From Rubripirellula tenax (GTDB lineage: Bacteria > Planctomycetota > Planctomycetia > Pirellulales > Pirellulaceae): a stretch of DNA of 64,000 nucleotides. Shown one piece after another: positions 21,668-64,000 of this stretch. The stretch covers positions 223,553 to 287,552 of the forward strand of contig NZ_SJPW01000008.1 in the NCBI RefSeq assembly GCF_007860125.1, read 5' to 3'. Each line of letters begins with the position of its first letter. Position 1 is the first letter of the stretch. The notes below the pieces were generated by a model. It was given only the letters and a program-made list of their open reading frames with translations. It was not told the origin of the DNA and did not search any database. The translations under genes were made by a program, and so were the position numbers.

Positions 21668-21692
21668 ATAAATACTGTTACGCGAGGAGGAA

Positions 21693-44879: not shown

Positions 44880-44973
44880 CGGTTCTATTGCTTTGCCGTC
44901 GCGGGACGACCCAGGATTTCCGCCATGCGAAAAAACGGGCGATTCTTACTACTTGAAAACGATCGATTGGGGT

Positions 44974-45922: not shown

Positions 45923-46612
45923 TTGAAAATAAAGGCCGAACCGCTGGACGATCTGAAAACTGATTCCTTGATCGACCCTTCATTCCTATTTCGATTTGAA
46001 TTGTCGATTCAACACGATCCATGCGAATGGTCGACAAAAGGCTTGTCTTTGCCGGCCGCTTGCCGCTTGCCGTCGCTGGGTGCGCTGGGCGATCGGCCGG
46101 TGTTTTCGGACGTTCGAATGGCGTGGTGCAAATCCGGAATCGGATTGCACATCAGCGTGAATGGCAAGCGACAGTTGCCCTGGTGCCGCGATTCGCGTCT
46201 AGAAGACAGCGATGGGTTTCATGTTTGGATCGATACGCGGTGCAGTCCATTGATCCACCGCGCCACACAGTTTTGTCATCGATTCTTGTTCATGCCTGCC
46301 GGTGGCGGCCCGAAACGCGAACATGCCACTGCGGCGATCATTCCAATCAACCGGGCACGCATGCATCCAAAATCGTTTCCGCCAAAAACATTGAAGATTG
46401 TCGGACTTCCTCGCCACGACGGGTACGAGATGTCGGGTTTTATTCCGTCCGACGCTTTGACCGGGTTTGATCCGGCGGACCAACCCCGAATCAGTCTGTA
46501 TTACGCCGTCATCGACCGTGAACTCGGCTGGCAAACGCTTTCGCTCGGCCCCGAATACCCTGTCATGGAAGACCCCAGTCTGTGGGGCGAAGCCATCCTG
46601 TCCGGCGGATAG
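45923..46612 (+). CDS. conserved hypothetical protein, carbohydrate-binding family 9-like
   Basis: A 229-residue protein without a signal peptide. The stretch 'DGFHVWIDTRCSPLIHRATQ' with preceding 'VRMAWCKSGIGLHISVNGKRQ' resembles the CBM9/DOMON-like beta sandwich found in planctomycete proteins of unknown function. The start is a TTG with weak support; an internal start is possible. A hairpin repeat begins directly after its stop codon. I do not recognise a more specific function. Confidence 0.65.
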   Translation: MKIKAEPLDDLKTDSLIDPSFLFRFELSIQHDPCEWSTKGLSLPAACRLPSLGALGDRPVFSDVRMAWCKSGIGLHISVNGKRQLPWCRDSRLEDSDGFHVWIDTRCSPLIHRATQFCHRFLFMPAGGGPKREHATAAIIPINRARMHPKSFPPKTLKIVGLPRHDGYEMSGFIPSDALTGFDPADQPRISLYYAVIDRELGWQTLSLGPEYPVMEDPSLWGEAILSGG

Positions 46613-46710
46613 CAGCCTGTTGAAAAAGGTGTCTGACCCTTTGGAGACGTTGCTGACACATTGTGAATTCGAAACGTCGAAGAAGGTCAGACACCTTTTT
46701 CAACAGGCTG
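46613..46710. repeat. palindromic dispersed hairpin element, copy 2
   Basis: A perfect 26-bp inverted repeat (46613-46638 with 46685-46710, core AAAAAGGTGTCTGACC) encloses a loop with 'GAGACGTTGCTGACACATTG' and 'GAATTCGAAACG', closely matching the loop of the copy at 23057. It begins immediately after the stop codon of the CBM9-like gene and could end its transcript. The rest of the 383-base gap to korA (46711-46995) holds nothing else I can support except presumed korA promoter sequence. Confidence 0.8.
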
Positions 46711-46995
46711 ATAGGCCGCTCATTCTTGGCCTTCAGCGTCCCCATTCGTTGTCCCTCTGCCGTCTCGGCTGCGGCGGGTTGCGAGCGCAAGATTGTTAGC
46801 AATTTCGGTCAGAAGGCCGACGCTTTGGACGAACCATCGTATTTTTGGTCAAAAACAGAGCAACTGTGGCCGGAAAACGGCGTTTGCCCGTTACCAAAAC
46901 GCCCGCGATTTATAGAATTTCGGTAAGTTCTGAACCCGGAACGATCGATACAACCCCTAAAGTCCCTCCTACTTACGCCAGAACCTGTTGCCAGC

Positions 46996-48891
46996 ATGAC
47001 GGTTTCCCCCACCACGACCAAAAAAGTCCAGTCCGTTTCTGGAATAACTGTCCGGCTCGCCGGCGACTCGGGCGACGGGATGCAGTTGCTTGGAACGCAG
47101 TTGACCAACACCAGCGCGTTGGCGGGAAATGACGTCGCCACGTTCCCGGACTTCCCCGCGGAAATCCGAGCCCCGCGAGGTACTCGCGCCGGAGTATCGG
47201 GATTCCAAGTTCAATTCGCTAGCGAAGAGATCTTCACGCCCGGTGATGTCTTGGATGCACTGGTGGTGATGAACCCTGCAGCGATGGTCACCAATTTGGG
47301 CGATCTTCGCAAAGGCGGCATCCTGATCGCCAACGAAGACGGATTCAACGACAAAGAATTCAAGCTCGCCAAAGTCGAATCGAACCCGCTTGAAGCCAGC
47401 GTGATCGAAGAAACTTACCGCGTCGTCAAAGTACCGATGACCACATTGACTCGCGATGCCGTCGCCAGCTTTGACCTTGGCGTCAAACTTGCCGATCGCT
47501 GCAAAAACTTCTTCGCGATGGGTTTGGTGTATTGGCTGTTCGGCCGATCGCTGGAGCCGACACTGAGATTCATCGAGGACAAGTTCGGTAAGAAGCCTGA
47601 TGTCGCGGCGGCCAACGTCGCGGCCCTTCGCGCCGGCTGGGCTTTCGGTGAAACGACCGAAGCGTTCGGCGAAAGCTACCAGGTCGAAGCGGCCGAGCTG
47701 AAACCGGGCACGTATCGCAACATCATGGGCAACCAAGCGATCGCGATGGGATTGGTCGCCGCTTCCAAAGTCAGTAACAAGGAAATGTTCTACGGAACGT
47801 ACCCCATCACGCCGGCAAGCGATATTTTGCACGAGCTGACGAAGTTCAAGAACTTTGGCGTTCGCACGTTCCAAGCCGAAGATGAAATCGCGGCGATCTG
47901 CGCCACGATTGGCGCCGCGTTCGGGGGAAGCATGGGCGTGACCGCCAGCAGCGGCCCCGGCATCGCGTTGAAGGGCGAAGCGATGGGGTTGGGAATGATG
48001 TTAGAGTTGCCGATGATCATCATCGACGTCCAACGTGGCGGTCCGAGTACGGGGCTGCCGACGAAGACCGAACAGAGCGACCTGTTACAGGTGATGTTCG
48101 GGCGCAATGGCGAATCCCCGTTGCCAGTATTGGCGCCGCGTTCACCCGGCGACTGTTTTGACATTGCGATCGAAGCTTGGCGAATCGCGACGGAGTGCAT
48201 GTGCCCGGTCATCATTTTGTCCGACGGATACATCGCTAACGGAAGCGAGCCATGGCGTGTGCCAAAAATGTCGGAGCTGCCGAAGATCGAAATTTCGCAC
48301 CCCGAGGGCACCGACGACGAAACTGCGTTTAAGCCTTACGCTCGCGACGAAAATCTGGCACGGCCGTGGGCGGTTCCCGGGACTCCGGGATTGATGCACC
48401 GCGTCGGTGGTCTTGAAAAAGAAGACGTGACAGGCAACGTCAGCTATGACCCCGCCAATCACCAACACATGACGAACACGCGAGCCGCGAAGGTCGCCAA
48501 CATCGCCAAGCGGATTCCCGCCCAAGATGTATTTGGCGAAACGTCAGGCGACGTGTTGGTCATTTCGTGGGGCGGGACTTACGGATCGTGTCACACTGCG
48601 GTTGATCGCATCCGAAAAGCCGGCCATAAGGTCAGCCATGCCCACGTTCGCTACATGAATCCGATGCCGGCCAACATGGGCGAACTGATGAAGTCGTTCA
48701 CGAAGGTCGTCGTTCCCGAGCTGAACACCGGACAACTGCGGATGCTGTTGCGAGCCGAACACTTGGTCGACTGCATTGGCATCAATAAAGTCCAAGGCAA
48801 GCCCTTCACAGTCACCGAGTTGGTCGAACAGATCTCAGCGATTGCGGTCGACGCGGAAGCATCCGATCCTGGCAAGCGCCACGCTTCCTAA
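46996..48891 (+). CDS. korA: 2-oxoacid:ferredoxin oxidoreductase, fused gamma-alpha subunit
   Basis: A 631-residue subunit of the enzyme that reversibly converts 2-oxoglutarate (or another 2-oxoacid) with CoA to acyl-CoA, CO2 and reduced ferredoxin. The N-terminal gamma domain (about 15-210) starts 'TVRLAGDSGDGMQLLGTQL' and has 'DFPAEIRAPRGTRAGVSGF'; the alpha domain follows with 'GNQAIAMGLVAAS', 'YGTYPITPASDILHEL', 'AEDEIAAICATIGAAFGG' and 'QRGGPSTGLPTKTEQSDL'. The gamma-alpha fusion with a separate beta subunit is the KorAB layout. korB follows by 52 bases. Confidence 0.92.
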   Translation: MTVSPTTTKKVQSVSGITVRLAGDSGDGMQLLGTQLTNTSALAGNDVATFPDFPAEIRAPRGTRAGVSGFQVQFASEEIFTPGDVLDALVVMNPAAMVTNLGDLRKGGILIANEDGFNDKEFKLAKVESNPLEASVIEETYRVVKVPMTTLTRDAVASFDLGVKLADRCKNFFAMGLVYWLFGRSLEPTLRFIEDKFGKKPDVAAANVAALRAGWAFGETTEAFGESYQVEAAELKPGTYRNIMGNQAIAMGLVAASKVSNKEMFYGTYPITPASDILHELTKFKNFGVRTFQAEDEIAAICATIGAAFGGSMGVTASSGPGIALKGEAMGLGMMLELPMIIIDVQRGGPSTGLPTKTEQSDLLQVMFGRNGESPLPVLAPRSPGDCFDIAIEAWRIATECMCPVIILSDGYIANGSEPWRVPKMSELPKIEISHPEGTDDETAFKPYARDENLARPWAVPGTPGLMHRVGGLEKEDVTGNVSYDPANHQHMTNTRAAKVANIAKRIPAQDVFGETSGDVLVISWGGTYGSCHTAVDRIRKAGHKVSHAHVRYMNPMPANMGELMKSFTKVVVPELNTGQLRMLLRAEHLVDCIGINKVQGKPFTVTELVEQISAIAVDAEASDPGKRHAS

Positions 48892-48943
48892 ACTGACCTA
48901 ACGACGTCCCACCTTACTTCTAGCACCCAACACCGATCTTTCC

Positions 48944-49951
48944 ATGTCTCTTCCTGTTTTAAAAGCTTCCGACTTCGCCTCCAACCAAGACGTCCGTTGG
49001 TGCCCCGGCTGTGGCGACTATTCGATTCTGGCACAAATGAAAAAGGTGCTGCCGGAATTGGGAGTGCCACGTGAAAAGATCGTCTTCATCAGCGGCATCG
49101 GGTGCAGCAGCCGATTCCCGTACTACATGAACACGTACGGCATGCACTCGATTCACGGCCGCGCGCCGGGATTCGCAACTGGCCTGAAGTCGACGCGTCC
49201 CGACTTGATGGTTTGGGTCATCACTGGGGACGGCGATGCGTTGTCCATTGGCGGTAATCACTTCATCCACATGTTGCGCCGGAACATCGACGTCAATGTG
49301 GTGCTGTTTAACAACCGCATCTATGGCTTGACCAAGGGGCAATACAGCCCGACCAGCAAAGAAGGCCAGATCACCAAGAGCACGCCGATGGGATCGATCG
49401 ACCATCCATTGATGCCGTTGTCGTTGGCACTGGCGGCGGAAGCGACGTTTGTGGCGCGATCCATCGACGCCCACGTCAAACATTTGGGCGAAACGCTCGC
49501 CCGTGCGGCCGCTCACAAGGGAACGTCCTTGGTCGAGGTTTACCAAAACTGCAACGTCTTCAACGACGGCGCGATGGCATATGCCCAAGAGAAGAAACAG
49601 CGCGCCGACAACGTCATCGAACTTGAACACGGCAAGCCGCTTATCTTCTCGGGCGGAACCAAGGGGATTCGCTTGGTCGGCAATCACTTGGAAATCGTCA
49701 ACACGGCCGATGTCCCCACGGACGACTTGCTGATCCACGATGAAAAGTCGCCCAACCCGTCGATCCACATGATGCTGGCCCGCATGAGCTACCCCGAAAT
49801 GCCGGAACCGATCGGAGTCTTCCGAGCCGTCGAGGGCGTCGCAACTTATGACGACCAAATCAATCAGCAGGTCGAATTGGCAAGAAGCAAAAAGGGCGAA
49901 GGCGACCTTGAGAAACTGTTCGCCGCCGGGGACACCTGGACCGTGAAGTAA
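48944..49951 (+). CDS. korB: 2-oxoacid:ferredoxin oxidoreductase, beta subunit
   Basis: A 335-residue partner of the upstream KorA. The N-terminal 'VRWCPGCGDYSILAQM' holds cysteines that bind the iron-sulfur cluster, and the thiamine diphosphate motif is seen in 'WVITGDGDALSIGGNHFIH...VVLFNNRIYGLTKGQYSPTS'. The final segment is the short C-terminal helix of the family. It acts in the cytoplasm as a heterotetramer with KorA; the ferredoxin is not encoded here. Co-directional with korA and probably the same operon. Confidence 0.93.
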   Translation: MSLPVLKASDFASNQDVRWCPGCGDYSILAQMKKVLPELGVPREKIVFISGIGCSSRFPYYMNTYGMHSIHGRAPGFATGLKSTRPDLMVWVITGDGDALSIGGNHFIHMLRRNIDVNVVLFNNRIYGLTKGQYSPTSKEGQITKSTPMGSIDHPLMPLSLALAAEATFVARSIDAHVKHLGETLARAAAHKGTSLVEVYQNCNVFNDGAMAYAQEKKQRADNVIELEHGKPLIFSGGTKGIRLVGNHLEIVNTADVPTDDLLIHDEKSPNPSIHMMLARMSYPEMPEPIGVFRAVEGVATYDDQINQQVELARSKKGEGDLEKLFAAGDTWTVK

Positions 49952-50083
49952 TTTGGCAGCAACCTTGATCGTTTCACTTTCCACCCATTACACCGCGTCC
50001 GTAGCTCCATAGCATCGTGGACCAGTGTTTTTGGGTTGGCGAGAGACGAGTGAATCTGAAAACTGAAATCGGGAGATTTTTTG

Positions 50084-51025
50084 ATGGCAAGAAGCAAAAG
50101 CTACTCGGACATTACCAAGGCTGTCGGCGACACCCCGATGATCCAGATCAACCGCCTAGTTCCCGCCGGCGGAGCGACGGTTTTCGCAAAGTGCGAATTC
50201 TATAACCCGCTCAACAGCGTCAAGGACCGCATCGGCGCGGCCATGATCGCCGCTGGTGAACGAGACGGATTGATCAACAAAGAAACTCACATTGTTGAAC
50301 CGACCAGCGGCAACACCGGCATCGCGTTGGCATTCGTTTGCGCCGCCAAGGGTTACAAGCTGACGCTGACGATGCCTGAGTCGATGTCAGTAGAACGACG
50401 CGCACTGCTGCGAGCGATGGGCGCGAACTTGGTTCTGACCCCGGCCGGCGACGGCATGAAAGGTGCCATCAATCGTGCGATGGAATTGGTCGAAAGCACG
50501 CCCAACGCCTACATGCCCCAGCAATTCGAAAACCCTGCCAACCCCGCGATTCACGAAGCGACCACCGGTCCCGAAATCTGGGAAGACAGCGGTCACAACA
50601 TCGACGCGATCGTCGCGGGAGTGGGCACCGGTGGCACCATCACCGGTGTGGCGAAGTTTTTGAAAAAGCAAAATCCGAACTTCAAGGCCTTTGCCGTTGA
50701 GCCGACGCATTCGCCCGTGATTAGCGGCGGCGCCCCCGGCAAACACCGTATCCAAGGCATCGGCGCGGGCTTCGTCCCAAAGAACTTGGACGTTTCGATC
50801 GTTGACGACGTCGTTCAAGTCGATGACGAAGATGCGTTCGAGTGGGGCCGCAAGCTGGCCAAGATGGAAGGCATCGTTGGTGGCATCAGCAGCGGAGCCA
50901 ACATGTGGGCAGCCGCACAAGTCGCCGCACGTCCCGATATGAAGGGCAAGCGCATCGTCACGATCATGTGCAGCCTCGGCGAACGCTACCTCAGCACGCC
51001 ACTGTTCGGCGATCTCGGCCTGTAG
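50084..51025 (+). CDS. cysK: cysteine synthase A (O-acetylserine sulfhydrylase)
   Basis: Forms L-cysteine from O-acetylserine and sulfide with PLP. A 313-residue protein starting at the ATG of 'MARSKSYSDITKAVGDTPMI' (GGGAG upstream; a TTG 3 bases earlier is less likely). PLP-binding Lys47 is in 'NPLNSVKDRIG', the substrate loop is 'EPTSGNTGIALAF', the phosphate-binding loop is 'GVGTGGTITGVAKFL', and the final 'GGISSGANMWAA' Ser binds the pyridine nitrogen. The partner serine acetyltransferase is encoded 8.5 kb downstream on the other strand, on the far side of the inorganic-carbon operon. Confidence 0.95.
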   Translation: MARSKSYSDITKAVGDTPMIQINRLVPAGGATVFAKCEFYNPLNSVKDRIGAAMIAAGERDGLINKETHIVEPTSGNTGIALAFVCAAKGYKLTLTMPESMSVERRALLRAMGANLVLTPAGDGMKGAINRAMELVESTPNAYMPQQFENPANPAIHEATTGPEIWEDSGHNIDAIVAGVGTGGTITGVAKFLKKQNPNFKAFAVEPTHSPVISGGAPGKHRIQGIGAGFVPKNLDVSIVDDVVQVDDEDAFEWGRKLAKMEGIVGGISSGANMWAAAQVAARPDMKGKRIVTIMCSLGERYLSTPLFGDLGL

Positions 51026-51376
51026 CAACGGATCAGTTGTGATTTTTTGAGAATGTCTCATCTGAATGTCGCCTGTTGCTCGGCAAAAGGCTTGGCAGAT
51101 GACGCTACTTTCGCAGAGCGAAAGACGAAATCATAAAGTCAAAACCAAGGCGCGACTCGCATCCATGAGGCCAACATCCCATGGCCTTCTTGCACTGTTG
51201 CGGTGCATGGCGGAAACACGCCACACCACCGCGTTTTCTATTGGGATTTGTTAGATAAAATACGAGTCGGACGTGGGATGCCAACTTTCGCGGCAACTCG
51301 CATACAGTACGCTACGGACAAAACGGGGCCAAGAGAAAGGGCCGCGTCCCTTCCGCTACTTTAAAACCGACTCAAC
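51026..51376. other. intergenic region upstream of the dab operon
   Basis: A 351-base gap with no gene. It has a perfect short hairpin CTTTCGC-AGA-GCGAAAG (51108-51124) and weaker ones (TGAGA-ATG-TCTCA, 51047-51059). It must carry the dab operon promoter and any CO2-responsive operator, neither of which I can identify. Confidence 0.45.
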
Positions 51377-51847
51377 ATGCGCGACACGTCATCCAGTGTT
51401 GTTTCATCCGATCCATCTTTTTCGACGACTTCGTCGACCGGATTGAAGTCGCAAGTCTCTGCTGAAACCGTTGACCGAATCAAGCATGCCATCGAGCACG
51501 CGACGCACTATCTGCCGTCGCAGGGCCCGATCTCGATCTTCGTTCACCACAACACGCTGCACTCGTTCGAGGATCTGCCGTTCGAGGAAGCGGTGCTCGC
51601 CGGTGGTGCGATGTACGACTGCCAGCCGTATCTTTCCGAGGGCCGCTACCGCGAAGCACTCCGACGTGGCCGGATCACCCTGGACGAACTTCGCGACGTG
51701 TTGCTGGATGATCTGGGGGACGAAGCCGACGATTTGGTCGCCAGCTTCGGAACGCTGTACACATTGCGTTTGTCGATGCTACAGATGCCGCCTCACGAAG
51801 CCCCGACGCCGAGTTGCAATGGTTGTTGGCGGAATCGGATCTGCTGA
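51377..51847 (+). CDS. dabA: DabA (DUF2309) N-terminal fragment, frameshifted
   Basis: The first 141 codons encode the conserved DabA N terminus: 'ATHYLPSQGPISIFVHHNTL' with 'HSFEDLPFEEAVLAGGAMYD', and 'LYTLRLSMLQM'. After 'PPHEAP' near 51802 the frame runs into unrelated sequence and stops. The protein continues in the next reading frame (51814-54552), where '[17 protein letters not shown]' fits the family. One extra C at the CCCC run 51801-51804 would join the two as HEAPDAELQ. So this is the 5' part of a single dabA broken by a one-base loss, a sequencing error, or a site of frameshifting. Confidence 0.85.
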   Translation: MRDTSSSVVSSDPSFSTTSSTGLKSQVSAETVDRIKHAIEHATHYLPSQGPISIFVHHNTLHSFEDLPFEEAVLAGGAMYDCQPYLSEGRYREALRRGRITLDELRDVLLDDLGDEADDLVASFGTLYTLRLSMLQMPPHEAPTPSCNGCWRNRIC

Positions 51848-54552
51848 AGAAGTTTAACGAATCGGTGCCCACGCAGGTCGCCGATCGGATGGTCGGCGGA
51901 ACGCATCAATGGGTTTACCGCCATCGAGACAATAAGCAAAACGAATCCGACGGCAACACCGACGGATCGGTCAAGCAACTGGACGCTCCTGACGCCGCAC
52001 TGCTCGCGTCAATGCTGAAGCAATTTCGAGATCACAACATCGATTCCTGGTCAAAGTCGAAGTGGACCGCGTTTGTTTTGGAACTGCTTTGGAATGTCTG
52101 TCATCGCGGCGTCGAACAAGCCGGGCTCGCCGCGCCGACGCTGCCTCGCCCGCTGCGTCATCGCGACAGTTTGCTGCGAGCGACCGGCGTCGATTCAGAT
52201 CAGCTGGTCCACGAAGTGATGATTCGGTTTTGCGGAGTCTTTTTGGACCAAGGCTTTGCCGGATTGTCGCTGCCACTTCGCGAATCCGGGTTTGCGGCGT
52301 CGTTCGCGAACTTGTATTTGCAACCGATGTCGATCATGCCGTCATGGATGAAGCCGATGCGGGCAGAACTGGCGTCGATCGCCATGGGCGGCTTCGACGT
52401 GCATCGTTCGATCGCTCAATCGCTTCAATCGCTGGGCGTCGACGACACCGAGCAGAAGGATTATATCCACCAAACGATGCTGGCCCTGCGAGGTTGGGCG
52501 GGAATGATATGGCAGATGGAAACCGCCGCACCGTTCTTTCCCATGCCCGCGCCGGCCGGATCATTAGCCGAGTTCATCGCGATCCACTTGATGCTGGAAC
52601 GGCACGCGATTGCCGATGCGGGAAAACGCTTATACGGAACGACCGATCTGCACCAGATTCATTCGCATACATCAGCCAAAGCCGCCACCGTGCCCGTCGC
52701 GTCGGTCGAGCAGCGAACCTACACCGTTTTTCAACTCGCTCAAACCGGCGGCTGGATGCCCGACCAATTGCTCGCCATGTCCCAGCCGCAATGGCAGCGA
52801 CTGATCGGCGCGATCGAGTCGTTCACGGAACACGATCGACGCCGCATCTTTCATTTGGCTTTCGAGAAACACTATCGAACCGACACGCTGAACGCCATCG
52901 TCAATCATGGCAAGCGAGTTGCGATGCGGCCGAAACAGGAAGTCAAGACGCCGCCCGCTTACCAAGCCATCTTTTGCATCGACGATCGCGAAGAGTCCAT
53001 TCGTCGTCATTTGGAAGAAGCCGATCCCGCATGCGAGACGTCCTCGGCGGCCGGATTTTTTGCCGTCGCGATGTACTACCAAGGCGCTGATCACGCACAC
53101 TATCGTCCACTGTGTCCGAACGTGATCACGCCGTCACACTACGTTCGCGAAGAGCCGTTGTTTTCGTCGGTCGAAGACAACGAGAAACGCGCCCAGCGGC
53201 GTCGACGCATCGGCGCCGTCACCCACCAAGTGCACGCCAGTTCGCGGACCATGTTGGGCGGTTGGATCACGGGCATCTTTGGCGCCGTCGCGACCTTCCC
53301 GATGGTGGCTCGCATCATGGCGCCCAGATTGACGTCGCAGGTACGCGAGTTGGTCGGTTCGCTTACGCGCCCCCCGGCCACCGAACTCCATATCGAGCGG
53401 ATCACCGAAGAACCGGGCCAGGACTTTGACGCGCTCGGGTACAGCTTGCCCGAAATGGCGACGATTGTCGTTCGAATTTTGCAAGACATTGGGATGGTCG
53501 AGAGCTTGCCGCCGATCACGGTCTTCTTTGGACACGGTTCGAGCAGTTTGAACAACCCGCACGAATCGGCTTACAACTGTGGCGCGTGCAGCGGAGGTCG
53601 TGGCGGTCCCAACGCGCGAGCTTTCGCCATGATGGCAAACGATTCGCGTGTTCGCGCACTCGTCGCAGAGCAAGGTATCGTGTTACCCGATGACGTGCGA
53701 TTCGTCGGCGCGTACCACAATACGTGCAGTGATGATGTCGAATACTACGACTTGGATCTCTTGCCACGCAGCCACCGCAACCTGTTTCGCCGCATCGAAG
53801 CGTCGGTCAACGAAGCCCGAGCGCGAAACGCACATGAACGATCCCGCCGTTTCGAGTCCGCACCGTTGGACATGACACCGAGTCTCGCACTCGAGCACGT
53901 CGAGCAGCGCAGCGAAGATCTGTCGCAAGCCCGACCCGAATACAACCATGCCACAACGGCCATGGTCTTGGTCGGTCGTCGAGAATGGAGTCGCGGCTTG
54001 TTTTTGGACCGTCGCTCATTCTTGACGTCCTATGATCCGACGATCGATGATGAAAACGCGACCATCCTGGCTCGCATTTTGGCTGCGGCGATTCCTGTTT
54101 GCGCCGGGATCGGGTTGGAGTACTATTTTTCGACCGTCGACAACGAAGGCTACGGTTGCGGATCAAAATTGCCACACAACATTGCATCGATGTTGGGTGT
54201 GATGACGGGTGCGTCCAGCGATTTGCGCCCCGGACTTTCACAGCAGATGGTCGAGATACACGAGCCGATGCGAATCCTGTTTGTCATTGAAACGACGCCC
54301 GCACGGATGCTGGCCATCATGGCAGGCAACGAAACCATCCATCGTCTTGTCAGCGGACGGTGGGTCCAGTTGGCCGTTTATGACGCAGAGACTTCAACGA
54401 TTCAGCAGTACGTCGATGGTCAGTTCCGAGCGTATGTTCCAACGACGGACGAACTTCCAATATCGCCGTCATCGATCGATTGGTATCGAGGGCAACGCGA
54501 TCACTTGGGATTCGCAACACTGAACGCCGGCCATCCACGAGGTGAGCAATGA
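51814..54552 (+). CDS. dabA: DabA (DUF2309) inorganic carbon transporter subunit, main part
   Basis: The remaining 912 residues of DabA, the cytoplasmic zinc protein of the DAB complex, which resembles a beta-carbonic anhydrase and hydrates CO2 to bicarbonate one way, driven by its membrane partner. Zinc-ligand motifs are present: '[17 protein letters not shown]' (Cys and Asp) and '[16 protein letters not shown]...CGACSGG' (His and Cys). With the preceding fragment the total, about 1058 residues, matches the family. The reading frame upstream is broken at 51801-51804; the initiator at 51814 may not be real. It overlaps the next gene by ATGA. Confidence 0.9.
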
Positions 54553-55943
54553 ACGCGACGGAACTGGTTTTTCAGGCGTTGGGCACTGCCGTCGTCGTCA
54601 GCCCGCTGATTTTGGTCGCTATCCTTGGCTTGTCGGCGCTAGTGGGTCGGGCTCTAAGTGAGACCACGATCTCGCGATTGACCCAGGCTTCGGTGCTGTT
54701 TTCGCTGATGCCGGCGATCGGCATTTTGGCGATGATGTTGATTTTGGGAACTCGATATGTTCCCATCGAATGGGGTGACTGGGTGTCGATCCCCGAACAG
54801 GACTTTCACTTTCACGTGAAGTTTGTTTTCGATCGATTGAGCGTTCCGTTTGTGATTCTGTCGTGCGTGCTGTGCGGTGTCGTGGGCGCGTTCACGCGGC
54901 GGTACCTGCACCGTGAAGACGGCTACTCACGCTTCTTTTTGTACTACGCCATGTTCTTCACTGGCATGGTGATGTCGTCGCTTGCCGGAACAATCGAAAC
55001 GCTGTTCGTCGGCTGGGAAATGGTCGGTTTGTCGTCGGCACTTTTGGTCGCCTATTTCGATCAACGTGAAAACCCGGTTCGTAGTGGACAACGCGTGTGG
55101 TCGATCTATCGCCTGTCCGATGCTGCGTTTTTGATTGCGGCAATTTCGATCCACCACATGACCGGCGAAGGTGATTTCGGCGGCTTGATGAGCAGCGGTA
55201 TATGGCCCGAAGGCACCGCGGCAGTCACGCCACAGCAGGCGTTGTTCGTTGGCGCGTTGTTGTTAGTCGCGGCAGCCGGCAAGTCCGCGTTGTTCCCGTT
55301 TTCGGGTTGGTTGCCGCGAGCAATGGAAGGACCGACACCGTCAAGTGCCATTTTCTACGGCGCCCTTTCGGTTCACTTGGGTGTGTACTTGTTGTTGCGA
55401 GTCAGCCCATTGCTTGACGTTTCGACGACGCTGCGAGTCATGGTGGTCACGTTGGGGGTCGTGTCGGCGGGATGCGGCGCGTTGATGTCGCGAGTCCAAC
55501 ACGACGTCAAGGTATCACTGGCCTACGCGTCGCTGACGCAAGTCGGAATCATCGTCGTTGAGATCGGACTGGGGCTGCACTATTTAGCGCTGGTCCACAT
55601 CATCGGCCACGCTTGCATGCGAACGATGCAACTGCTTCGTGCACCGACGTTGCTGCGAGACTACCAGAACATGGAAAACGCCATGGGCAGTCGCTTGCCG
55701 GCGGGTAAGTCTCGTCTTGCAAAGTGGATGCCCAACTCGATCGAGCAATGGTGTTATCGATTCGGCTTCGATCGAGGCTTTATGGATACGGCATTGGATC
55801 AGTGGATCGTACATCCGTTCGTGTTTCTATTCCAAAAGTTTGATTCATGGGAACGAGCGACGACGGATTGGATGTCGCACGAACCGTCACGCGAATCCGA
55901 CGCGACCAAACTGCATCCCGAATCAACGCGAAAGACTGCTTAG
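54549..55943 (+). CDS. dabB: NuoL-like proton-conducting membrane subunit (DabB-type)
   Basis: A 464-residue membrane protein with about 12 helices. It carries proton-pathway motifs of complex I antiporter subunits: '[19 protein letters not shown]' (Glu) and '[20 protein letters not shown]...[20 protein letters not shown]' (Lys and the helix-break region). It should anchor DabA and couple its action to the cation gradient. It is coupled to dabA by ATGA, and the second antiporter-like gene begins 1 base after its stop. The C-terminal 60 residues are a soluble tail ('[10 protein letters not shown]' at the end). Confidence 0.88.
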
Positions 55944-55944
55944 A

Positions 55945-57507
55945 ATGGGTGAACTTCATTTTCCCTGGATGGAAACGTCGATCCTTGTGCCGCTTGTTGG
56001 CGCGGTTTGGATCCGATTTTTTGCCAATCCCGACAATTCGTTCCGTCAAGCGATCGCGATCAGTGCCTTGACGCTTGCGTTAACAGTCGGCGAGTTGATT
56101 GACTTTGTCACGCTGGGCACGTTCGCGGCTCACGATCACTGGGCATTGATCGATTGGTTGTTTCATCAAGAAGTCTTTGTTGTTGACGAACTGAGTGCGT
56201 TTCTGTTGCCGTTGGGGGCGTTGATCCACTTGGTAACGGTGCTGTCGACATTAAGAACCAAGGCTCCCCGGTTTTCATTGACGTCGTGTTTGGTTTCCGA
56301 ATCCATCTTGTTGGCGACGTTCAGTTGTCGTGCATCGTGGACACTGGTCGCGTTGTTAACCGCCGCCACAGTGCCGGTCTATCTGGAATTGAGACGACGC
56401 CGACGCTGCACACGCATCTTCGTGTTCCATATGTCGGCATTCGTTGGATTGCTTGTCGTCGGCTGGGCGATGTTGCAGTACACGGGTTCGTCGTCTGAGT
56501 ACGTGTTGATCCCAGGCGCCCTGCTGACGGCCGCCGCACTGATCCGAAGCGGAATTGCACCCGTTCACCTTTGGATGACTGACCTTTTCGAGAAGTCAAC
56601 TTTTGGCACCGCAATCTTGTTCGTCACACCACTGACCGGCGCCTATGCGGTGATGCGATTCGTGCTACCGATCGCCCCGGCATGGGCGTTGCAAAGCATC
56701 GCGGTGCTGTCATTGACCACCGCAGTTTACGCGGGCGGCATGTCGCTGATTCAAAAAGAAGCGCGGCGGATGTTCTGTTTCCTGTTTCTAAGCCAAGCGT
56801 CGTTGGTTTTGGTAGGCTTAGAAATTGTCACGCCAATCGGCTTGACGGGAGCCCTTTGCGTTTGGTTATCCGTCGGGATGTCGCTGACCGGATTCGGAAT
56901 CACCCTTCGATGCATCGAAGCGAGAATTTCACGGATTTCGTTGGCCGATTTCCATGGACTCAATCGTCAGATGCCGACTCTTGCTGGCTTCTTCTTGCTG
57001 ACCGGACTAGCATCGATCGGGTTTCCATTCACCGTCGGCTTCGTCGGAATGGAGCTGTTGATTGACGGTGCGGTCGAGGTGTACCCGATTGTCGGAACTA
57101 TGGTTGTGATTGCAGCGGCATTGTGCGGAATTTCCGTCATGCTTGCCTACTTCCGCATCTTTACCGGACAAGCGAAAACGACGTTGATTCCGATGCATGC
57201 TCGGATGTCCGAACGAATTGCTGTTGTGATGCTTAGTGTGTTGATTATCGGTGGCGGCCTGGTTCCTCAACCCGGCGTAGCATCACGCTATCACGCGGCC
57301 AATGAACTATCGCAACAACGTCAATTGAACCCCATGACCACCGTCAACGGCGTGGTACACGAACACGTGACGGCCGCCGACGACGCAGGAGCCCCGGATC
57401 CAACTTTCTCCAACGAATCCGTCATTTTGAATCCCCCCGACCAATCACACCCGACCAATCACACCCGACCAATCACACTCGACCGATTGAAGACAACTCA
57501 ACCGTGA
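55945..57507 (+). CDS. second NuoM/NuoL-like membrane subunit of the dab operon
   Basis: A 520-residue membrane protein with about 14 helices and a soluble tail, in tandem with the NuoL-like gene. It retains the '[20 protein letters not shown]' loop and '[20 protein letters not shown]' of the family, though several charged positions of the antiporter core are less conserved than in its neighbour. Start chosen at the ATG of '[19 protein letters not shown]'; the longer frame begins inside the upstream gene. A second membrane subunit is unusual, since DAB systems generally have one DabB. The 3' end has a 14-bp triple repeat and overlaps the SulP start (GTGA). Confidence 0.85.
57437..57478. repeat. 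14-bp tandem repeat, three copies
   Basis: CCGACCAATCACAC occurs three times in a row (57437-57450, 57451-57464, 57465-57478) inside the 3' end of the second antiporter-like gene. Because 14 is not a multiple of three, a change of one copy would shift the frame just before the GTGA overlap with the SulP gene. Confidence 0.9.
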
Positions 57508-59513
57508 ATCAACCCATGACACATGATCGCGAGATTCCGAAGGGCAACGCGGAAGGTTTCATCAAATACTTTAAGCACGACTTCGTGTCGGGCCTTTCGG
57601 TATTTTTGATCGCTTTGCCTCTTTGTTTGGGAATCTCGATTGCAAGCGGTTATCCGCCGATCGCTGGGATCTTTACCGCGATCGTCGGTTCGATTGTTGC
57701 CACGCTGATCAGCAATTCGGAACTGACGATCAAGGGTCCTGCCGCCGGCTTGATCGTGATTGCGGTCGGTTGCATCGAAGCGTTTGGCGGCGACGGAATG
57801 GCCGGCGGCTGGACAGAGATCGACGTCACAGCCTATCGATCTGCCTTGGCGGTGGGTGTTGCCGCGGCGGCCCTGCAGGTCTGCTTCGGTTTTTTCCGCG
57901 CAGGCATTTTGGGAGAATTCTTTCCGAACTCGGCAGTCCATGGCATGTTGGCGGCGATCGGCGTGATCATCATCGCAAAACAGATACCGGTCGCGTTGGG
58001 TGTCGTCGGATCGGGTGGCCCGCTTGAAATGCTTCGACAGATTCCGGCGTACGTTGCCGAGGCGAATCCTGCGATCGCATCGATCGGTGTTGCCAGCATC
58101 TTGATCATGTTTCTTTGGCCGAACGTGGGGAAACGCTTTCCCATTGCAAAGGTATTGCCGTCGCCGCTGATCGTCCTTCTGGTCGCCGTTCCGATGGGCA
58201 TGCTCTTTGACCTGATGCACTCGCACTCGTACACGCTTCAAAACCACCAATACCAGTTGGGTGAGCAGTATCTGGTTGCGATGCCCGATCGAGTCTTCGG
58301 GATGTTCGACCAAATCACTACTCCTGATTTTTCGGCGCTTCGACAACCCAAAGCCTGGACATGGGTGTTCATGTTCTTTGTGATCGGCAGCCTCGAATCG
58401 CTGCTGTCAGCGAAAGCAGTCGACTTGATCGACCCATGGCGTCGCAAAACCAACATGGACCGCGATGTGATCGCCGTCGGTGTCGGCAACCTGTGCGCAT
58501 CGATGGTCGGCGGATTGCCGATGATTTCAGAAATCGTTCGCAGCAAGGCTAACATCGACAACGGGGCCAGAACACGGTTTGCCGATTTATGGCACGGAAT
58601 ATTTTTGTTGGTTTGCGTCGCGATGATCCCGATGGTATTGCACCGGATTCCGATGGCGGCGTTGGCAGCGATGCTGATCTACACGGGTTCTCGCTTGGCA
58701 CACCCAAACGAATTCATGAATGTGTGGCGAACCGGGCGCGAACAGTTGCTCGTGTTCGTCGTCACATTGGTCGCCGTTTTGGCCACGGACTTGTTGATCG
58801 GAATTGGGATCGGAATCGCGACCAAGGCGGTCATCCACTTGTCCAATGGAGTTCCTTTGCGATCGATGTTTAAACCCGACATTGAGATCGCCGACGACGA
58901 CGGCGAAACGGTTCGGATTGTGGCGTACAAGTCAGCCGTTTTCAGCAATTGGATTCCGATTCGACGACGCATCGAGAGCGTGGGTTTGCTGGAGCGACGA
59001 AACGTAGAATTTGATTTATCGGAAACCGAGTTTGTCGACCACAGCGTTATGGACAAACTCCACGAAGTCGAAGAAGACTTCACCCAAGCCGGATTGTCGT
59101 TTCGTGTCGTCGGACTAGACGAGCACCAACCCCTGGCAAGCCACCAACACGCCGCGCGGCGAAAGGGTCTGTGTTCGATCAAACGCATCACGATGATGAC
59201 CGCACCGGAAAACGAAGCGATGCTGACGGCCGAATGCATTCGACTGGGTGCGACGGGTTACACATCGGTGGATTGTCGCGGAGTCGGCAAGCAGGGAATT
59301 GACAACGAATCGATCGTCGCGATTTCCCAGGTACGCATCGAGGTGATGGCGACACAGGACGTTTGCACTTCAATCCTAGACTTCATTCGTCGCGAAGTTC
59401 AGCCGAACCACCGATTGACGTTCATGGTTGAATCGGTCCAGGTTTCGCGTTTGCACGCTTTCGTCACCCCCCCAAAAGATTCGCCCTCCCACAACCAACC
59501 GGTCGAAGCTTAA
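57504..59513 (+). CDS. SulP family transporter with STAS and PII-like C-terminal domain
   Basis: A 669-residue inner-membrane anion transporter. The membrane part (about 25-450, 10 or more helices) begins '[20 protein letters not shown]' with '[12 protein letters not shown]', typical of SulP bicarbonate/sulfate carriers. A STAS domain follows (about 469-555, '[20 protein letters not shown]'). The last ~105 residues (about 560-655) look like a PII/GlnB-type ferredoxin fold: '[20 protein letters not shown]', '[20 protein letters not shown]' and '[12 protein letters not shown]'. The GTG start overlaps the upstream stop, ending the four-gene dab operon, so bicarbonate is the likeliest substrate; sulfate is the alternative given nearby cysK and cysE. 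Confidence 0.88.
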
Positions 59514-59559
59514 CAGAATGTCCAAGCATGCGGCCTTGTAAAAGTGCGTTTGACGATCG

Positions 59560-60534
59560 TCAGATTTGGAAGTTCAGATCGTGTTCGAGCACTTCGTTGT
59601 CAGCCGACGCACCGCGAACTTTCAATTGCGGTTTTTCCAACACCACCGTCGTGCTTGGTGAAACGCTTTTGGTGATCCAGACGCTTGACCCGATCACTGA
59701 ATTGCGGCCAACCACCGTACGACCACCCAATATCGTTGCGTTCGCGTAAACGACCACGTGATCTTCAATGGTGGGATGCCGCTTTTGCCCACGGATCAGC
59801 GCGCCTTCGTTGTCCGTTGGAAAACTGAGCGCGCCCAAGGTGACGCCCTGATATAGTTTGACGTGCTCACCGATCTCGCATGTTTCGCCGATGACGACGC
59901 CGGTACCGTGATCGATGAAGAAGTAGTCACCAATGGTTGCACCGGGGTGAATGTCGATGCCCGTTTCCTTATGCGCCCATTCGGTCATCATGCGAGGAAT
60001 GAACGGCACATCCAGTTGCACCAATTCGTGTGCGATTCGGTAGATCGTGATTGCTTCGAAACCGGGATAGCAAAAGACGACTTCATCCGTTGTCTGGCAT
60101 GCCGGGTCGCCGTCATAGGCGGCTTGGACATCTGTCGCAAGCGTCTTGCGAAGCTTGGGAATTCGTTTGAGCAACTCGATCGCCATCGTTTGCCCCTTGG
60201 CTTCGAAGTCGATGTCGCTTTCGCAGTCGTTGTGCTTCGCCGTCACACGATCCTCGTGACGCAACGCCCGAGCGATCTCTGTGGTCAATTGGTCATGCAA
60301 CGTATCGACCAGCCCGCCGACGTGGTAGCGAATGTTACCCGTATGCAAACCGACTTTGCGGCGGTAACCGGGATACAGAATGTCTTTGATGTTCAGCAGG
60401 ATCTCGACGACCCCGGTGTAGGATGGCAGCGCGCAGTGACCGAGGTGGTTGATCGAGTCTTCCGCCGTGTAGGTGGACACGATCTCGTCGGTCAAGTTTG
60501 GAAGCTGTTCTTTTAAGCGAAAGTCAGATGCCAC
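59560..60534 (-). CDS. cysE: serine O-acetyltransferase
   Basis: Transfers acetyl from acetyl-CoA to L-serine, the first step of cysteine synthesis. A 324-residue protein: an alpha-helical N-terminal region ('[20 protein letters not shown]') and a left-handed beta-helix of hexapeptide repeats from '[19 protein letters not shown]' on, with the catalytic His region '[20 protein letters not shown]', '[19 protein letters not shown]' and the CoA site '[19 protein letters not shown]'. The long N-terminal part is that of the EpsC/SrpH-like group. It is on the opposite strand to cysK and convergent with the dab operon. Confidence 0.93.
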
Positions 60535-60589
60535 GGTGATCTCTCGATGCGGGTTGGTGAATGGCTTTGCGCTACCCTACGAACAACGA

Positions 60590-60612
60590 CCAGTTCGGGA
60601 TTTCCCGACTGG
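60590..60612. terminator. hairpin between lipoprotein gene and cysE
   Basis: CCAGTTCGGGA and TCCCGACTGG pair with one bulged base and a two- to four-base loop. It sits in the 208-base gap between two minus-strand genes. No good T run follows on the minus strand, so terminator function is uncertain. Confidence 0.35.
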
Positions 60613-60742
60613 CCGCTGTGTGTCTTTTACAATCTCTGGACTGAGTTCTCTCCGATTGGCTCGCGCCATTCCTTGCGTTTCAAGCAGAATTCCTCTCCTC
60701 GAATCGTCGGATCGACTTAGAACCCGATTCCTGACTTGACCC

Positions 60743-61276
60743 TTAGCGGCCGATCGTTGGCGGGTTGTCCACGAAGAAGTCTCGTGGGCCGCGAACGCTA
60801 TAGTAAGGATAGGCAACTTGAGCCGATGGCGGGCCCGGGGTAAATGGGCGGCTATTCAGCGCGTTGCCCGCTTGATGGCCCAAAAGGCCCGGTTGCAGGT
60901 GCGAACTATAATCCAAACCGCCTTGCTGCCATCCCAACGGTCCGGCTTGGCACCCGGTGCGACATCCGCCGTTACAGCATCCGACGCCGGCCATTCCGCC
61001 GAGGTGTCCGATCAATCCACTTTTGCCACAGTTGCACGAACCGCTGCCGTTACAGGCATCGGCCGCACGCTTACTCTTGAGCCGGCTTAGCATGCCGACC
61101 GGGCCGCTGTTACCACACTCGTTACAGCCGCCGCATTCGCCGCCGCCGCACGACTGGACGCTCGACCCACATGCGCCCGATTGACAGCCACCGCCGCCTC
61201 GCACGTTGTGGTGCAGGCAACCGGTCGATCCGACAAGCAAGGCCGCGATCGACCCCATCCATAGCCAACGATACAT
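60743..61276 (-). CDS. Cys/Gly-rich outer lipoprotein
   Basis: A 177-residue lipoprotein: signal 'MYRWLWMGSIAALLVGSTGC' with lipobox GSTGC. The mature N-terminal half is packed with Gly and Cys ('GGGGCQSGACGSSVQSCGGG', 'CGGCNECGNSG', 'CNGSGSCNCGKSG', 'CCNGGCRTGCQAG'), about 18 cysteines, which could form disulfides or bind metal. The C-terminal part is Pro/Tyr-rich ('PFTPGPPSAQVAYPYYSVRG'). No enzymatic domain is seen. Proteins of this style are frequent in Pirellulaceae and may contribute to the cell envelope. Confidence 0.82.
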   Translation of the reverse strand: MYRWLWMGSIAALLVGSTGCLHHNVRGGGGCQSGACGSSVQSCGGGECGGCNECGNSGPVGMLSRLKSKRAADACNGSGSCNCGKSGLIGHLGGMAGVGCCNGGCRTGCQAGPLGWQQGGLDYSSHLQPGLLGHQAGNALNSRPFTPGPPSAQVAYPYYSVRGPRDFFVDNPPTIGR

Positions 61277-61561
61277 TGCGGAATCCTTCCGATTTTACGC
61301 CCGCCCGAGGGCGGCAATTGATGTTTGGTTCATTGAAGCGGTACTTACACCTCGCTCCCGTTGGTAGTTTCGGCTTCCCATTCGGTCCCGTGCACACAAT
61401 CGGCTCTACCAGACCAGTCTGAATAAAAAGACGGCGTCATCGTCTCCGCAAATTGCCCAATCCCCCACATTTTGTTCTCGTCTTGCTCTCGGCGGCTCCG
61501 AATTGGTAGGTCCAAGCAACTTTATGAGCCTTGGGCGACAATCTTCTGGGAATCCGTTTCG

Positions 61562-61975
61562 ATGCCAAAAACCAACACAACACGCCATTCGCCAATACGT
61601 GTCGCTTTGATGCTGATCGCGGCCGCCACAGCCTTTGGTGTCTCGACAAACGCGGCTGCCCAAATCGTTTCGCCGTCACTGACCGTCACTCCGCGCGACC
61701 CGATCGCAACGCTTTCTGACCAACTGATCAATCGACTCCACGCGACCCAGCAAGACCAACGCGAGTACTTGGCGATCGTGCTGGGAAAAGTCAAATCCGG
61801 CGCCCTGGACGCTCGGCTCGTCGTTGCGATTCAGCGTTACGCCATCAAGCGGAACTCGTCATTCCCGTTCCCGTTCTTCGAGCGAGCGATGCAGTACGAG
61901 GCGGCCAAGCGAGGCGTCAAGCTGCCGACGTATCACGAAGTCGCATCGACATCGAGGCCCATGCCGGGTCGCTGA
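61562..61975 (+). CDS. small secreted protein of unknown function
   Basis: A 137-residue protein from the ATG of 'MPKTNTTRHSPIRVALMLIA'. A signal peptide ends near 'STNAAAQIVSPS'. The mature part has a helical, charged segment ('LHATQQDQREYLAIVLGKVK') and ends 'HEVASTSRPMPGR'. No family recognised. It lies 150 bases before the sulfatase gene on the same strand. Confidence 0.75.
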   Translation: MPKTNTTRHSPIRVALMLIAAATAFGVSTNAAAQIVSPSLTVTPRDPIATLSDQLINRLHATQQDQREYLAIVLGKVKSGALDARLVVAIQRYAIKRNSSFPFPFFERAMQYEAAKRGVKLPTYHEVASTSRPMPGR

Positions 61976-62125
61976 ACGCTGGAATCACCGAAGAATACCG
62001 CTGGCCGAATTCTCTTCGGGCGCGCATCCGGCGCGGACGTCGACTAAATTCATTGTCGATGGTCGGTGGGACGTTCAGGTCCGTAAAGTCGCCGCCATTC
62101 CCGCGATTTCAGGATCGAGCCCCGC

Positions 62126-63604
62126 ATGTCATTTCAACGCACGATGTTTCGCATCGTCCTTCTTATCATGGTCGGCGCCATCCACGGGCCAACCGACACA
62201 GCGATTGCGCAGCAGGACATCGGCGCCGAACGCCCGAATGTCGTGATGATTGTGATCGACGACCTGAATGATTGGGTCGGATGTTTGGGTGGGCACCCAC
62301 AAGTGCAAACGCCTCATATCGATTCGCTCGCCAAACGTGGCGTGACGTTCACAAACGCCCATTGCCAGGCCCCCATTTGCAACCCGTCGCGAATCAGCAT
62401 GTTGCTGGGCCAATTGCCGTCCACGACCGGGCACTACTTCCTAACGCCCGGCTTTCGCGATGTGGAAGTCACTCGAAATGCCGAAACTTTGTTCCAGTCC
62501 GTCCGTCGCCAGGGATATCGAACCGAAACGATGGGCAAGATTTTTCACGCCAGCGCCGACAAACCGTCGTTCGATCTTGCCCAACGTTCAAAAGGGATTC
62601 GCGGTCTGCCGAAAAAGCTGCACTATGATTTGCCCGGATCCCATCCCCTGTGGGATTGGGGACAAGTAGATTTTCCCGACGAAGATCAGCGTGACTATCA
62701 CACGGCATCATGGGCGGCCCAACGGTTTCCCGAACTGGCCAAGGCAGACCAACCGTTCGTGATGGCCGTTGGTTTTTATCTGCCGCATGTTCCCATCTAT
62801 GCATCCAAGAAATGGTTCGATCTTTATCCGATGGACGAACTGGTGATGCCAACCGTCCCCGAAGGTGATCTCGACGACGTCCCGCCGATTGCGATCGAGT
62901 TGAGCAAGAATATGACGGCCCCACGCAACGAATGGATGATCGAAAATGGCGAGGACAAAGAAGCGGTACGTGCTTACTTGGCATCGATATCGTTCGTCGA
63001 TCACTTGGTGGGAATGGTGCTGGATTCGGTCCAAAAGTCTGGTCACAGCGACGATACGCTCGTCGTGCTGTTAAGCGACCACGGTTTTCATTTGGCTGAA
63101 AAGAATAAGTGGGCCAAACGCAGTCTGTGGGAACGGACGACGCGAGTACCCCTGTTGGTTGCTGGACCTGGAATCGCAAACAACGCGCGTTGCGATGCCC
63201 CCGTCGGCCTGATCGATGTCTATCCGACGCTGTTGGATTTATGTGCCTTGCCGCAGCAAGAGAATCTGGACGGACATAGCCTGCGGCCATTGCTTGAAGA
63301 CGTGCAATCGCCATGGCAGCACCCAGCGATCTGTACATTCGGCCCTGGCAACCATTCGGTTCATTCCACCGACTACCATTTCATCCGTTACCGCGACGGA
63401 TCGGAAGAACTCTATGACCGGCGAAGCGATCGACTGGAGCAATACAATCTTGCAAACGATTCATCGATGTCCTCAGTCCTTGATGAACATCGAAAGTGGA
63501 TTCCCCAGAACGACGCGCCGATGGTTCCGGGCAGTCGAGGTTCCGACTCGCCACTTTACGGTGAATCCAACGGGCTTCAAAAAGCGATGAAGCGAGAGAA
63601 ATAG
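62126..63604 (+). CDS. secreted type I sulfatase, iduronate-2-sulfatase-like
   Basis: A 492-residue exported sulfatase. Signal peptide at residues 1-30; mature part starts 'RPNVVMIVIDDLNDWVGCLG', with the two metal-binding Asp residues. The formylglycine signature CNPSRISMLLGQ at Cys85, 'GKIFHAS', 'GFYLPHVPIYASKKWFDLYP' and 'LLSDHGFHLAEKNKWAKRSL' fit the iduronate-2-sulfatase-like subgroup common in planctomycetes. It should hydrolyse sulfate esters of a glycan in the periplasm or outside. The activating formylglycine-generating enzyme is not encoded in this window. A DUF1559 gene lies convergently downstream. Confidence 0.92.
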   Translation: MSFQRTMFRIVLLIMVGAIHGPTDTAIAQQDIGAERPNVVMIVIDDLNDWVGCLGGHPQVQTPHIDSLAKRGVTFTNAHCQAPICNPSRISMLLGQLPSTTGHYFLTPGFRDVEVTRNAETLFQSVRRQGYRTETMGKIFHASADKPSFDLAQRSKGIRGLPKKLHYDLPGSHPLWDWGQVDFPDEDQRDYHTASWAAQRFPELAKADQPFVMAVGFYLPHVPIYASKKWFDLYPMDELVMPTVPEGDLDDVPPIAIELSKNMTAPRNEWMIENGEDKEAVRAYLASISFVDHLVGMVLDSVQKSGHSDDTLVVLLSDHGFHLAEKNKWAKRSLWERTTRVPLLVAGPGIANNARCDAPVGLIDVYPTLLDLCALPQQENLDGHSLRPLLEDVQSPWQHPAICTFGPGNHSVHSTDYHFIRYRDGSEELYDRRSDRLEQYNLANDSSMSSVLDEHRKWIPQNDAPMVPGSRGSDSPLYGESNGLQKAMKREK

Positions 63605-63608
63605 AGGA

Positions 63609-64000
63609 TCACCAATCGCCTTCGATCACTTCATGCCCATTGCGAGTCCCCAGTGCGTGCCAAATCGTGCGGTCGATTGAATCAGTAATCGACGACACGC
63701 TGCCATCCAGCTTAGCGGTGTTGACGAGCCCGACGTGATGGCTGCGTGAAGTGATAGCCGCATAAGTCGGATTTCCCGCGGATCCGTCTTTGCCTTCTTG
63801 CCACGAATTGAAATCCGTTTGCGGATACGTTTGCCCGGCGATCGTGAAGGCAACATTTGCGTTAGGCGGAAGCGTGACCGTGAACCCGGTGTGGTGGACT
63901 CGACCGTCCGGCCATTCGGTGTGCCCGGTGTCTTTGAACTGGGCTCCGCTGGCGACGACCATCTCGGCTTCGGCGGTCGTTTCGGGCAGCGAAGTCGATG
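63609..64000 (-). CDS. DUF1559 family protein, C-terminal part, truncated by the window end
   Basis: The frame remains open to the right edge, so the N terminus lies outside the window. The visible end shows the family's C-terminal signature: 'ITSRSHHVGLVNTAKLDGSV' (H-x9-DG) and 'TIWHALGTRNGHEVI'. It differs in sequence from the two complete DUF1559 proteins at 18.4 and 21.7 kb, so it is not a recent copy of them. It converges on the sulfatase gene with a 4-base gap. Confidence 0.85.
   Translation of the reverse strand, partial: STSLPETTAEAEMVVASGAQFKDTGHTEWPDGRVHHTGFTVTLPPNANVAFTIAGQTYPQTDFNSWQEGKDGSAGNPTYAAITSRSHHVGLVNTAKLDGSVSSITDSIDRTIWHALGTRNGHEVIEGDW

Follow-up and report, generated by a model that had tools for sequence, protein, structure and literature searches.

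Background

DAB systems raise the question of how proton flow is coupled to the hydration of CO2. Their DabA subunit is a zinc enzyme that hydrates CO2 to bicarbonate in one direction, driven by protons reaching it through membrane partners (PMC13144422). We analysed a 64,000-nucleotide stretch (the window) that forms part of contig 8 of the Rubripirellula tenax genome (8.0 Mb, 42 contigs, completeness score 99.91%), and describe here an operon on its + strand, at positions 51377-59513, that encodes in this order DabA, the antiporter-like proteins DabB1 and DabB2, and a SulP carrier ending in a PII-like domain.

Two DAB systems of Halothiobacillus neapolitanus serve as references. In DAB2, a glutamate on a membrane "finger" of DabA, Glu444, takes the place of the charges of transmembrane helix (TM) 12b of NuoL, and its replacement by Ala or Gln abolishes activity in vivo (PMC13144422); this residue completes the outer half-channel. 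DAB1 rescues carbonic-anhydrase-free E. coli when dabAB1 is expressed together with a single interstitial PF00361 gene (PMC7714395); its DabA has 1046 aa and shares its gene run with a PII/SbtB homologue (PMC4633670). A first inspection of the window from its letters alone (the sequence-only reading) had stated that DabA works with one DabB, which holds for DAB2 but is incomplete in view of DAB1. The combination of two antiporter-like genes with a nearby PII is not new, because DAB1, as published, has both.

PII proteins are trimers; canonical members (GlnB/GlnK) have a long T-loop and the phosphate-binding B-loop motif TGxxGDGK, and the PII-like proteins SbtB and CPII, as well as TTHA0516, are free-standing. 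Some SulP proteins carry bicarbonate (PMC12628692), and the SulP-type carrier family forms dimers (PMC6497670). Supply systems for dissolved inorganic carbon (DIC) also occur in non-autotrophs, MpsAB of Staphylococcus being one (PMC6689103, PMC8567241).

We propose, with a probability of roughly 0.57, that the R. tenax operon is a multi-antiporter-class (DAC) variant of DAB in which the proton path is re-divided between subunits, joined to a SulP carrier with a carbon-type PII-like domain. A natural form without the finger acid and with an acid in the partner makes it possible to test directly which residues carry the proton, and the fusion would represent the SbtA-SbtB idea in one chain of another carrier family. 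In the literature searched, which comprised open-licence papers, we met neither a SulP-PII fusion, beside DAB or elsewhere, nor a DAB class lacking the finger acid, nor the finger-TM12 pattern described below.

Results

DabA without the finger acid and two unequal DabB proteins

The four genes are tightly packed: DabA and DabB1, and likewise DabB2 and SulP, overlap by 4 bases, and DabB1 and DabB2 lie 1 base apart. The coordinates of the open reading frames (ORFs) agree with the position, strand, gene order and spacing first described. DabA belongs to PF10070, as had been recognised, but it is not the single gene then reported. It occupies two overlapping ORFs in different frames, an N-terminal piece of 156 aa (51377..51847, +; PF10070 positions 1-71, E 4.9e-16, 58.8 bits) and a main piece of 912 aa (51814..54552, +; PF10070 positions 87-747, E 2.9e-205, 684.4 bits; cut-off 25 in both cases), and is not readable as a single protein in the present assembly.

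The zinc motifs noticed earlier align with DabA2 of H. neapolitanus. Cys-Ile-Asp-Asp-Arg at 52975..52989 (+) corresponds to Cys351, Asp353 and Arg355 (numbering of PMC13144422), and the His...Cys element at 53533..53580 (+) to His524 and Cys539; all five residues, Cys/Asp/Arg/His/Cys, are conserved both in the alignment to DabA2 (9rd0_A) and within the family. Alignments place the membrane finger at 53239..53328 (+), and the column of Glu444, defined by the alignment of DabA to 9rd0, is here a Gly (53272-53274). A sequence search of the PDB with DabA returned DAB2 as the only DabA structure (three entries, one sequence). Foldseek found no match at E 0.001 for a predicted model of the long DabA of Roseiconus, nor was 9rd0 among the 50 matches listed; the finger of this model is helical with low confidence, so that the model supports nothing about the finger.

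DabB1, the NuoL-like partner adjoining DabA (464 aa; 54549..55943, +; PF00361, Proton_antipo_M, E 5.4e-39), aligns through TM11 and is without TM12-15, no segment exceeding the hydropathy threshold past residue 352 of 464. It retains the TM5 Glu, the Arg/Asp pair, the TM7 Lys and the paired His. The NuoM-like DabB2 (520 aa; 55945..57507, +; PF00361 E 3.4e-22) has a degenerate first half and a retained second half. Compared with E. coli NuoM, its TM7 Lys is replaced by Arg and its TM8 Lys by Leu; a conserved Glu in TM12 (57052..57054, +) follows the Pro of GFP (a GxP motif) by nine residues, and NuoM Glu407 sits one residue before this position. Since both proteins are PF00361 members, the early description of two antiporter-like membrane proteins stands. 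We also considered that DabB1 and DabB2 might be pieces of complex I; this is unlikely, because in 80 loci the two genes are found no more than 2.2 kb from DabA. DabB1, DabB2 and SulP are intact, and against the nearest relative their proportions of nonsynonymous (pN, 0.07-0.11) and synonymous (pS, 0.67-0.72) differences show them to be constrained.

The finger acid and the TM12 acid across loci

To compare loci (designated by L numbers), 151 DabA ORFs were aligned, of which nine, gapped at the finger column, were dropped. For twelve of the remaining 142, no DabB partner was encoded on the same strand within 2.2 kb (nine with an acidic finger, including proteobacterial loci whose partners lie further off, and three with a non-acidic one), leaving 130 loci for counting; the locus sets overlap, and 137 longer DabA sequences reduce to 126 at 90% identity. 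The finger column is without an acid in 107 of the 142 readable ORFs. Where a non-acidic finger was accompanied by a DabB partner in reach, the partner carried the TM12 acid in 99/104 loci (79/80 with DabB1 plus DabB2 and 20/24 with a single partner), and where the finger was Glu or Asp the TM12 acid occurred in 0/26. Short partners (333 and 177 aa) account for two of the five misses (L212, L229) and a contig end for a third (L216); L190 and L224 look real.

The residue at the finger column follows the type of DabA. Planctomycete long-type DabA of DabB1+DabB2 loci have Gly, Ala, Ser, Thr, Val or Leu, L043 being without the stretch, and short-type planctomycete DabA have Glu in 9/9 aligned. Asp is found in six rows labelled Proteobacteria or Acidobacteria (L130, L132, L133, L136, L139, L142), and Glu in L144 (Acidobacteria) and two Nitrospira rows. 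Another group of DabA without the finger acid has a single long DabB (625-808 aa among those tested), whose N-terminal half is DabB1-like and whose C-terminal half carries an acid at the same TM12 place. At L204, L207 and L217 two DAB pairs stand abreast on opposite strands, one with a DabA of 836-852 aa and a DabB of 653 aa, the other with a DabA of 882-908 aa and a DabB of 665 aa, neither with a finger acid.

The SulP carrier and its PII-like domain

SulP (669 aa; 57504..59513, +) starts with GTG, an ATG at 57516 being possible, and carries a putative STAS-like and a PII-like domain at its C-terminal end. Its membrane domain is PF00916 (Sulfate_transp; 195.8 bits, cut-off 23.2), so the SulP assignment of the sequence-only reading holds; the STAS part of that assignment received just a weak match below cut-off (PF13466, E 0.036), although the predicted model has a separate alpha/beta unit before the PII part. 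Residues 560-650 (59181..59453, +) match PF00543 (P-II; E 3.2e-11, 43.9 bits, cut-off 25).

A structure was predicted for the C-terminal 213 residues (pLDDT 86.7). All 50 PDB matches listed by Foldseek for this model are TTHA0516, CPII or SbtB (2cz4 at E 2.4e-8; CPII and SbtB at about 2e-7 to 3e-5), with no GlnB or GlnK among them, and TTHA0516 is also the sequence-nearest solved chain (E 7e-8; 30% identity over 102 columns). The TGxxGDGK motif was not seen in the window nor in the shown rows of a 41-row alignment. Because the fold matches TTHA0516, CPII and SbtB and the canonical motif was not seen, the predicted structure assigns the domain to the carbon-regulatory (CPII/SbtB) type. The PII fold proposed for the C-terminus was thus recovered by structure prediction, and the label "GlnB-like" attached to it is better replaced by CPII/SbtB-like. 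A chance match to PII was considered and rejected on the PF00543 score, the PDB sequence match and the Foldseek matches.

Distribution of the operon and the fusion

PF10070 was found in 23/60 genomes of relatives and 61/392 genomes of the phylum, R. tenax being counted in both. The recurrence of the operon across many genomes is far beyond chance. A search for the gene order in Planctomycetota, suggested by the sequence-only reading, did find it again: the four-gene order with the fusion is present in Roseiconus nitratireducens, Aporhodopirellula aestuarii, Rhodopirellula maiorica (where DabB1 is in two ORFs) and a record titled Rhodopirellula baltica BR-MGV, and with an unfused SulP in Adhaeretor mobilis and Botrimarina hoheduenensis. 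DabA-DabB1-DabB2 loci have a SulP-PII in 10/20 cases among relatives and 11/29 in the phylum sample, and a SulP without PII in 3/20 and 2/29, respectively. The idea of a combined DAB and SulP unit with a built-in PII-fold domain is accordingly supported by Pfam, by the fold matches and by the conserved gene order.

Seen from the carrier, the PII fusion is present on the best-scoring SulP in 48 of 80 named loci, a share biased upward because the query was itself a mostly PII-fused SulP, of whose 583 confirmed matches the best 80 were taken. Calling by the longest SulP also gives 48, with L107 and L120 exchanging places (L120 has a fused and an unfused SulP). DabA and DabB accompany the fusion in 23 of the 48, DabB only in 5 and DabA only in 1. 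SulP adjoins DabA or lies close to it in loci with the labels Planctomycetota, Proteobacteria, Acidobacteria and Nitrospira.

Some of these loci have arrangements of their own. In L142 (about 9,900-21,900) SulP and a DabA with finger Asp are immediately followed by MrpF, MrpG, MbhD/MbhE, a NuoK-like gene and three full PF00361 genes (Pfam), and this DabA is apparently joined to an Mrp-type antiporter operon; by profile, L130, L132, L136, L137 and L139 have the same SulP-DabA-gap-PF00361 layout. L145 and L148, titled Nitrospira, bring together SulP, a free-standing P-II (1.8e-22 in L145), a long DabA with finger Glu, a protein that Pfam does not match (437 aa in L145) and one DabB; the parts fused in Planctomycetota are there separate genes.

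The frame break in DabA

The N-terminal piece matches relatives up to about residue 138, the frame of the main piece is open from 51712, and alignment with relatives shows the homology switching frame near 51,800. Across this region DabA is continuous in 11/11 aligned relatives, but these had been preselected as ORFs of more than 1000 aa; four other long DabA of the genus (L036, L046, L050, L055; one of them in the R. tenax genome) are continuous as well. Three other loci of the set (L122, L208, L236) likewise have DabA split into two same-strand pieces. Since both pieces look constrained against the nearest relative (pN 0.21 and 0.13, pS about 0.69), the break either arose recently or reflects an assembly error. 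A programmed frameshift was set aside, L050, L055 and the other aligned relatives being single-frame throughout.

Genomic setting

R. tenax has two further DabA genes, each continuous: contig 16 encodes a SulP without PII, DabA, DabB1 and DabB2, and contig 7 a short DabA with one DabB. A PF00361 search of the genome found three more antiporter-like genes on contig 1, which were used as reference rows only. The RuBisCO large subunit (PF00016) had no match in this 99.91%-complete genome and matched in 5 of 14 control genomes, in keeping with the heterotrophic setting first surmised. Beta-carbonic-anhydrase gave two matches, one of which (G000 contig 2, 1044847-1045332; L187) sits within a 762-aa open frame that is perhaps a carrier-enzyme fusion.

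Upstream of the operon, window positions 46996-51025 hold a 2-oxoacid:ferredoxin oxidoreductase pair (POR domains and a TPP-enzyme domain) and a CysK-like (PALP) gene at 50081-51025; downstream, a serine acetyltransferase gene lies on the opposite strand (59560-60534). In two genomes of the same genus (L050, L055) the operon has neighbouring genes of similar length. No Rfam match at gathering scores was found in 44000-64000, and in plasmid searches all relatives of DabA and DabB2 were below 60% identity.

Discussion

These observations suggest a division of labour in the membrane. DabB1 would contribute a first antiporter half that stops after TM11, and DabB2 would supply the second half with its TM12 acid, the two together forming one antiporter-like channel beside DabA; judged from the sequences, the acid of DabB2 may replace the finger acid that is gone from this DabA. 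The SulP protein would import bicarbonate, and its fused CPII/SbtB-like domain might slow or open it according to the level of adenylate or bicarbonate. Because no RuBisCO large subunit was found in the genome, the bicarbonate produced probably serves biosynthetic carboxylases. A carbon-uptake machinery in an organism without detected RuBisCO fits the DIC supply systems of non-autotrophs.

Several observations weigh against this proposal. The TM12 pattern was loosened once: the stricter count is 77/80 and 17/24 (94/104 in all), still with 0/26, and the motifs missed by the strict pattern in L217, L230 and L236 were recognised by eye. The two misses that look real, L190 and L224, have neither acid, and L206 and L222 have a finger Glu together with a long DabB whose C-terminal half is DabB2-like, with the Glu shifted one position downstream. 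These four loci are the reason for rejecting a strict rule by which either one acid or the other is present. (L190 and L224 encode short-type DabA with Val-Gly-Pro where their kin on the tree have Glu, and an ordinary single DabB.) On the DabA tree (FastTree, 126 rows) the finger state changes 2 times and the TM12 state 4 times, and of 2 independent pairs one agrees and one does not differ. These changes point to one old event with small exceptions; repeated evolution of the acid swap is not shown, and the pattern, essentially one old split, could be lineage baggage. Furthermore, DabB1, DabB2 and short-type DabB were told apart with profiles built from those same groups. All nine long DabB tested, drawn from 21 loci with a single long DabB and a non-acidic finger, match both the DabB1 N-half and the DabB2 C-half profiles, but a full-length MrpD-like control does so too (44.7 and 44.1 bits); this shows no special kinship, as any complete antiporter would match, and we have withdrawn the long DabB as proof of a DabB1-DabB2 fusion, which slightly lowers the odds of our proposal. 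On the side of the carrier, SulP passes no NCBIfam cut-off, SulP-PII occurs without DabA or DabB in 19/48 fused loci, 8 of which have 6.5 kb or more of sequence to each side, and no SulP is in reach in 7/20 and 16/29 DabA-DabB1-DabB2 loci, some being hidden by contig ends. Finally, DabA is frame-broken in this assembly, so that this copy of the operon may be silent in the sequenced strain; two other DAB loci of the genome carry a continuous DabA.

Part of this evidence would suit an ordinary DAB1-type operon, in which the proton path has not moved, the finger Glu is dispensable in this lineage and DabB2 has a structural role or, as in complex I, pumps protons as a second subunit. DAB1 itself, in its published description, combines a long DabA with a NuoL and one more membrane protein, has a PII gene nearby and works with a second PF00361 gene; that the finger/TM12 pattern is one deep split also favours this view. 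The complementary look of the partners, DabB1 without TM12-15 and DabB2 without the key residues of its first half (TM7 Lys and TM8 Lys), speaks against it, and we hold this explanation to be possible but somewhat doubtful. The frame break raises a different question, namely whether the locus is decaying, with DabA a pseudogene in this species and the rest to follow. That DabA is in two frames here and continuous in the four other long DabA of the genus listed above and at the other two DAB loci of the genome would agree with this. On the other hand, DabB1, DabB2 and SulP are intact and constrained, as is DabA after the break, and a sequencing error would look identical to decay of DabA; we regard progressive loss as rather unlikely.

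The carrier admits yet another interpretation, in which SulP-PII transports sulfate or another anion unrelated to carbon uptake. As CysK-like and serine acetyltransferase genes flank the operon, a role in cysteine synthesis may apply, and SulP substrates do vary: of the SulP proteins of T. pelophila, one was able to rescue a carbonic-anhydrase mutant but another was not (PMC12628692). Yet SulP stands beside or near DabA in loci of four labelled groups, and the closest fold matches of the PII domain are carbon-type PII proteins, which makes this interpretation improbable. Returning to the re-divided proton path as the preferred reading, we tentatively envisage two DAB architectures, one in which the key acid is inserted by DabA itself and one in which it is carried by the membrane partner, either long or split in two genes. 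The latter would in Planctomycetota be joined to a bicarbonate carrier with a covalent carbon PII sensor, making a self-regulated CO2/bicarbonate unit for a heterotroph.

Comparison with known systems

DAB2 (PDB 9rd0) and the R. tenax operon share a PF10070 DabA, the same zinc and Asp-Arg residues and a NuoL-like membrane subunit. DAB2 has one DabB with 15 TM helices and Glu444 on the DabA finger, whereas this operon lacks the finger acid and encodes two antiporter-like subunits that are shorter or degenerate; of the two marks of the DAB2 subtype, a finger acid and a DabB with TM12-15, neither was found. The nearest precedent, compared by its published description, is the three-subunit DAB1 (Hneap_0907-0909). 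Both have a long DabA, a NuoL-like DabB and a second PF00361 gene in the operon, a DAB1-subtype feature represented here by DabB2. In DAB1, however, a separate gene encodes the PII, and the descriptions consulted mention no SulP in its operon (PMC4633670, PMC7714395).

The SulP protein shares the PF00916 membrane part, and may share a STAS-like unit, with BicA-like and other SulP bicarbonate carriers. It differs from them by its extra PII-like domain, and its score with the BicA model (NF050096) is far below cut-off (115.8 vs 880 bits). In the PII-like domain, the long T-loop and TGxxGDGK B-loop that would mark membership of canonical GlnB/GlnK were not found, and its fold is that of SbtB, CPII and TTHA0516. 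Whereas these are free-standing, the R. tenax domain is fused to a member of a dimer-forming carrier family.

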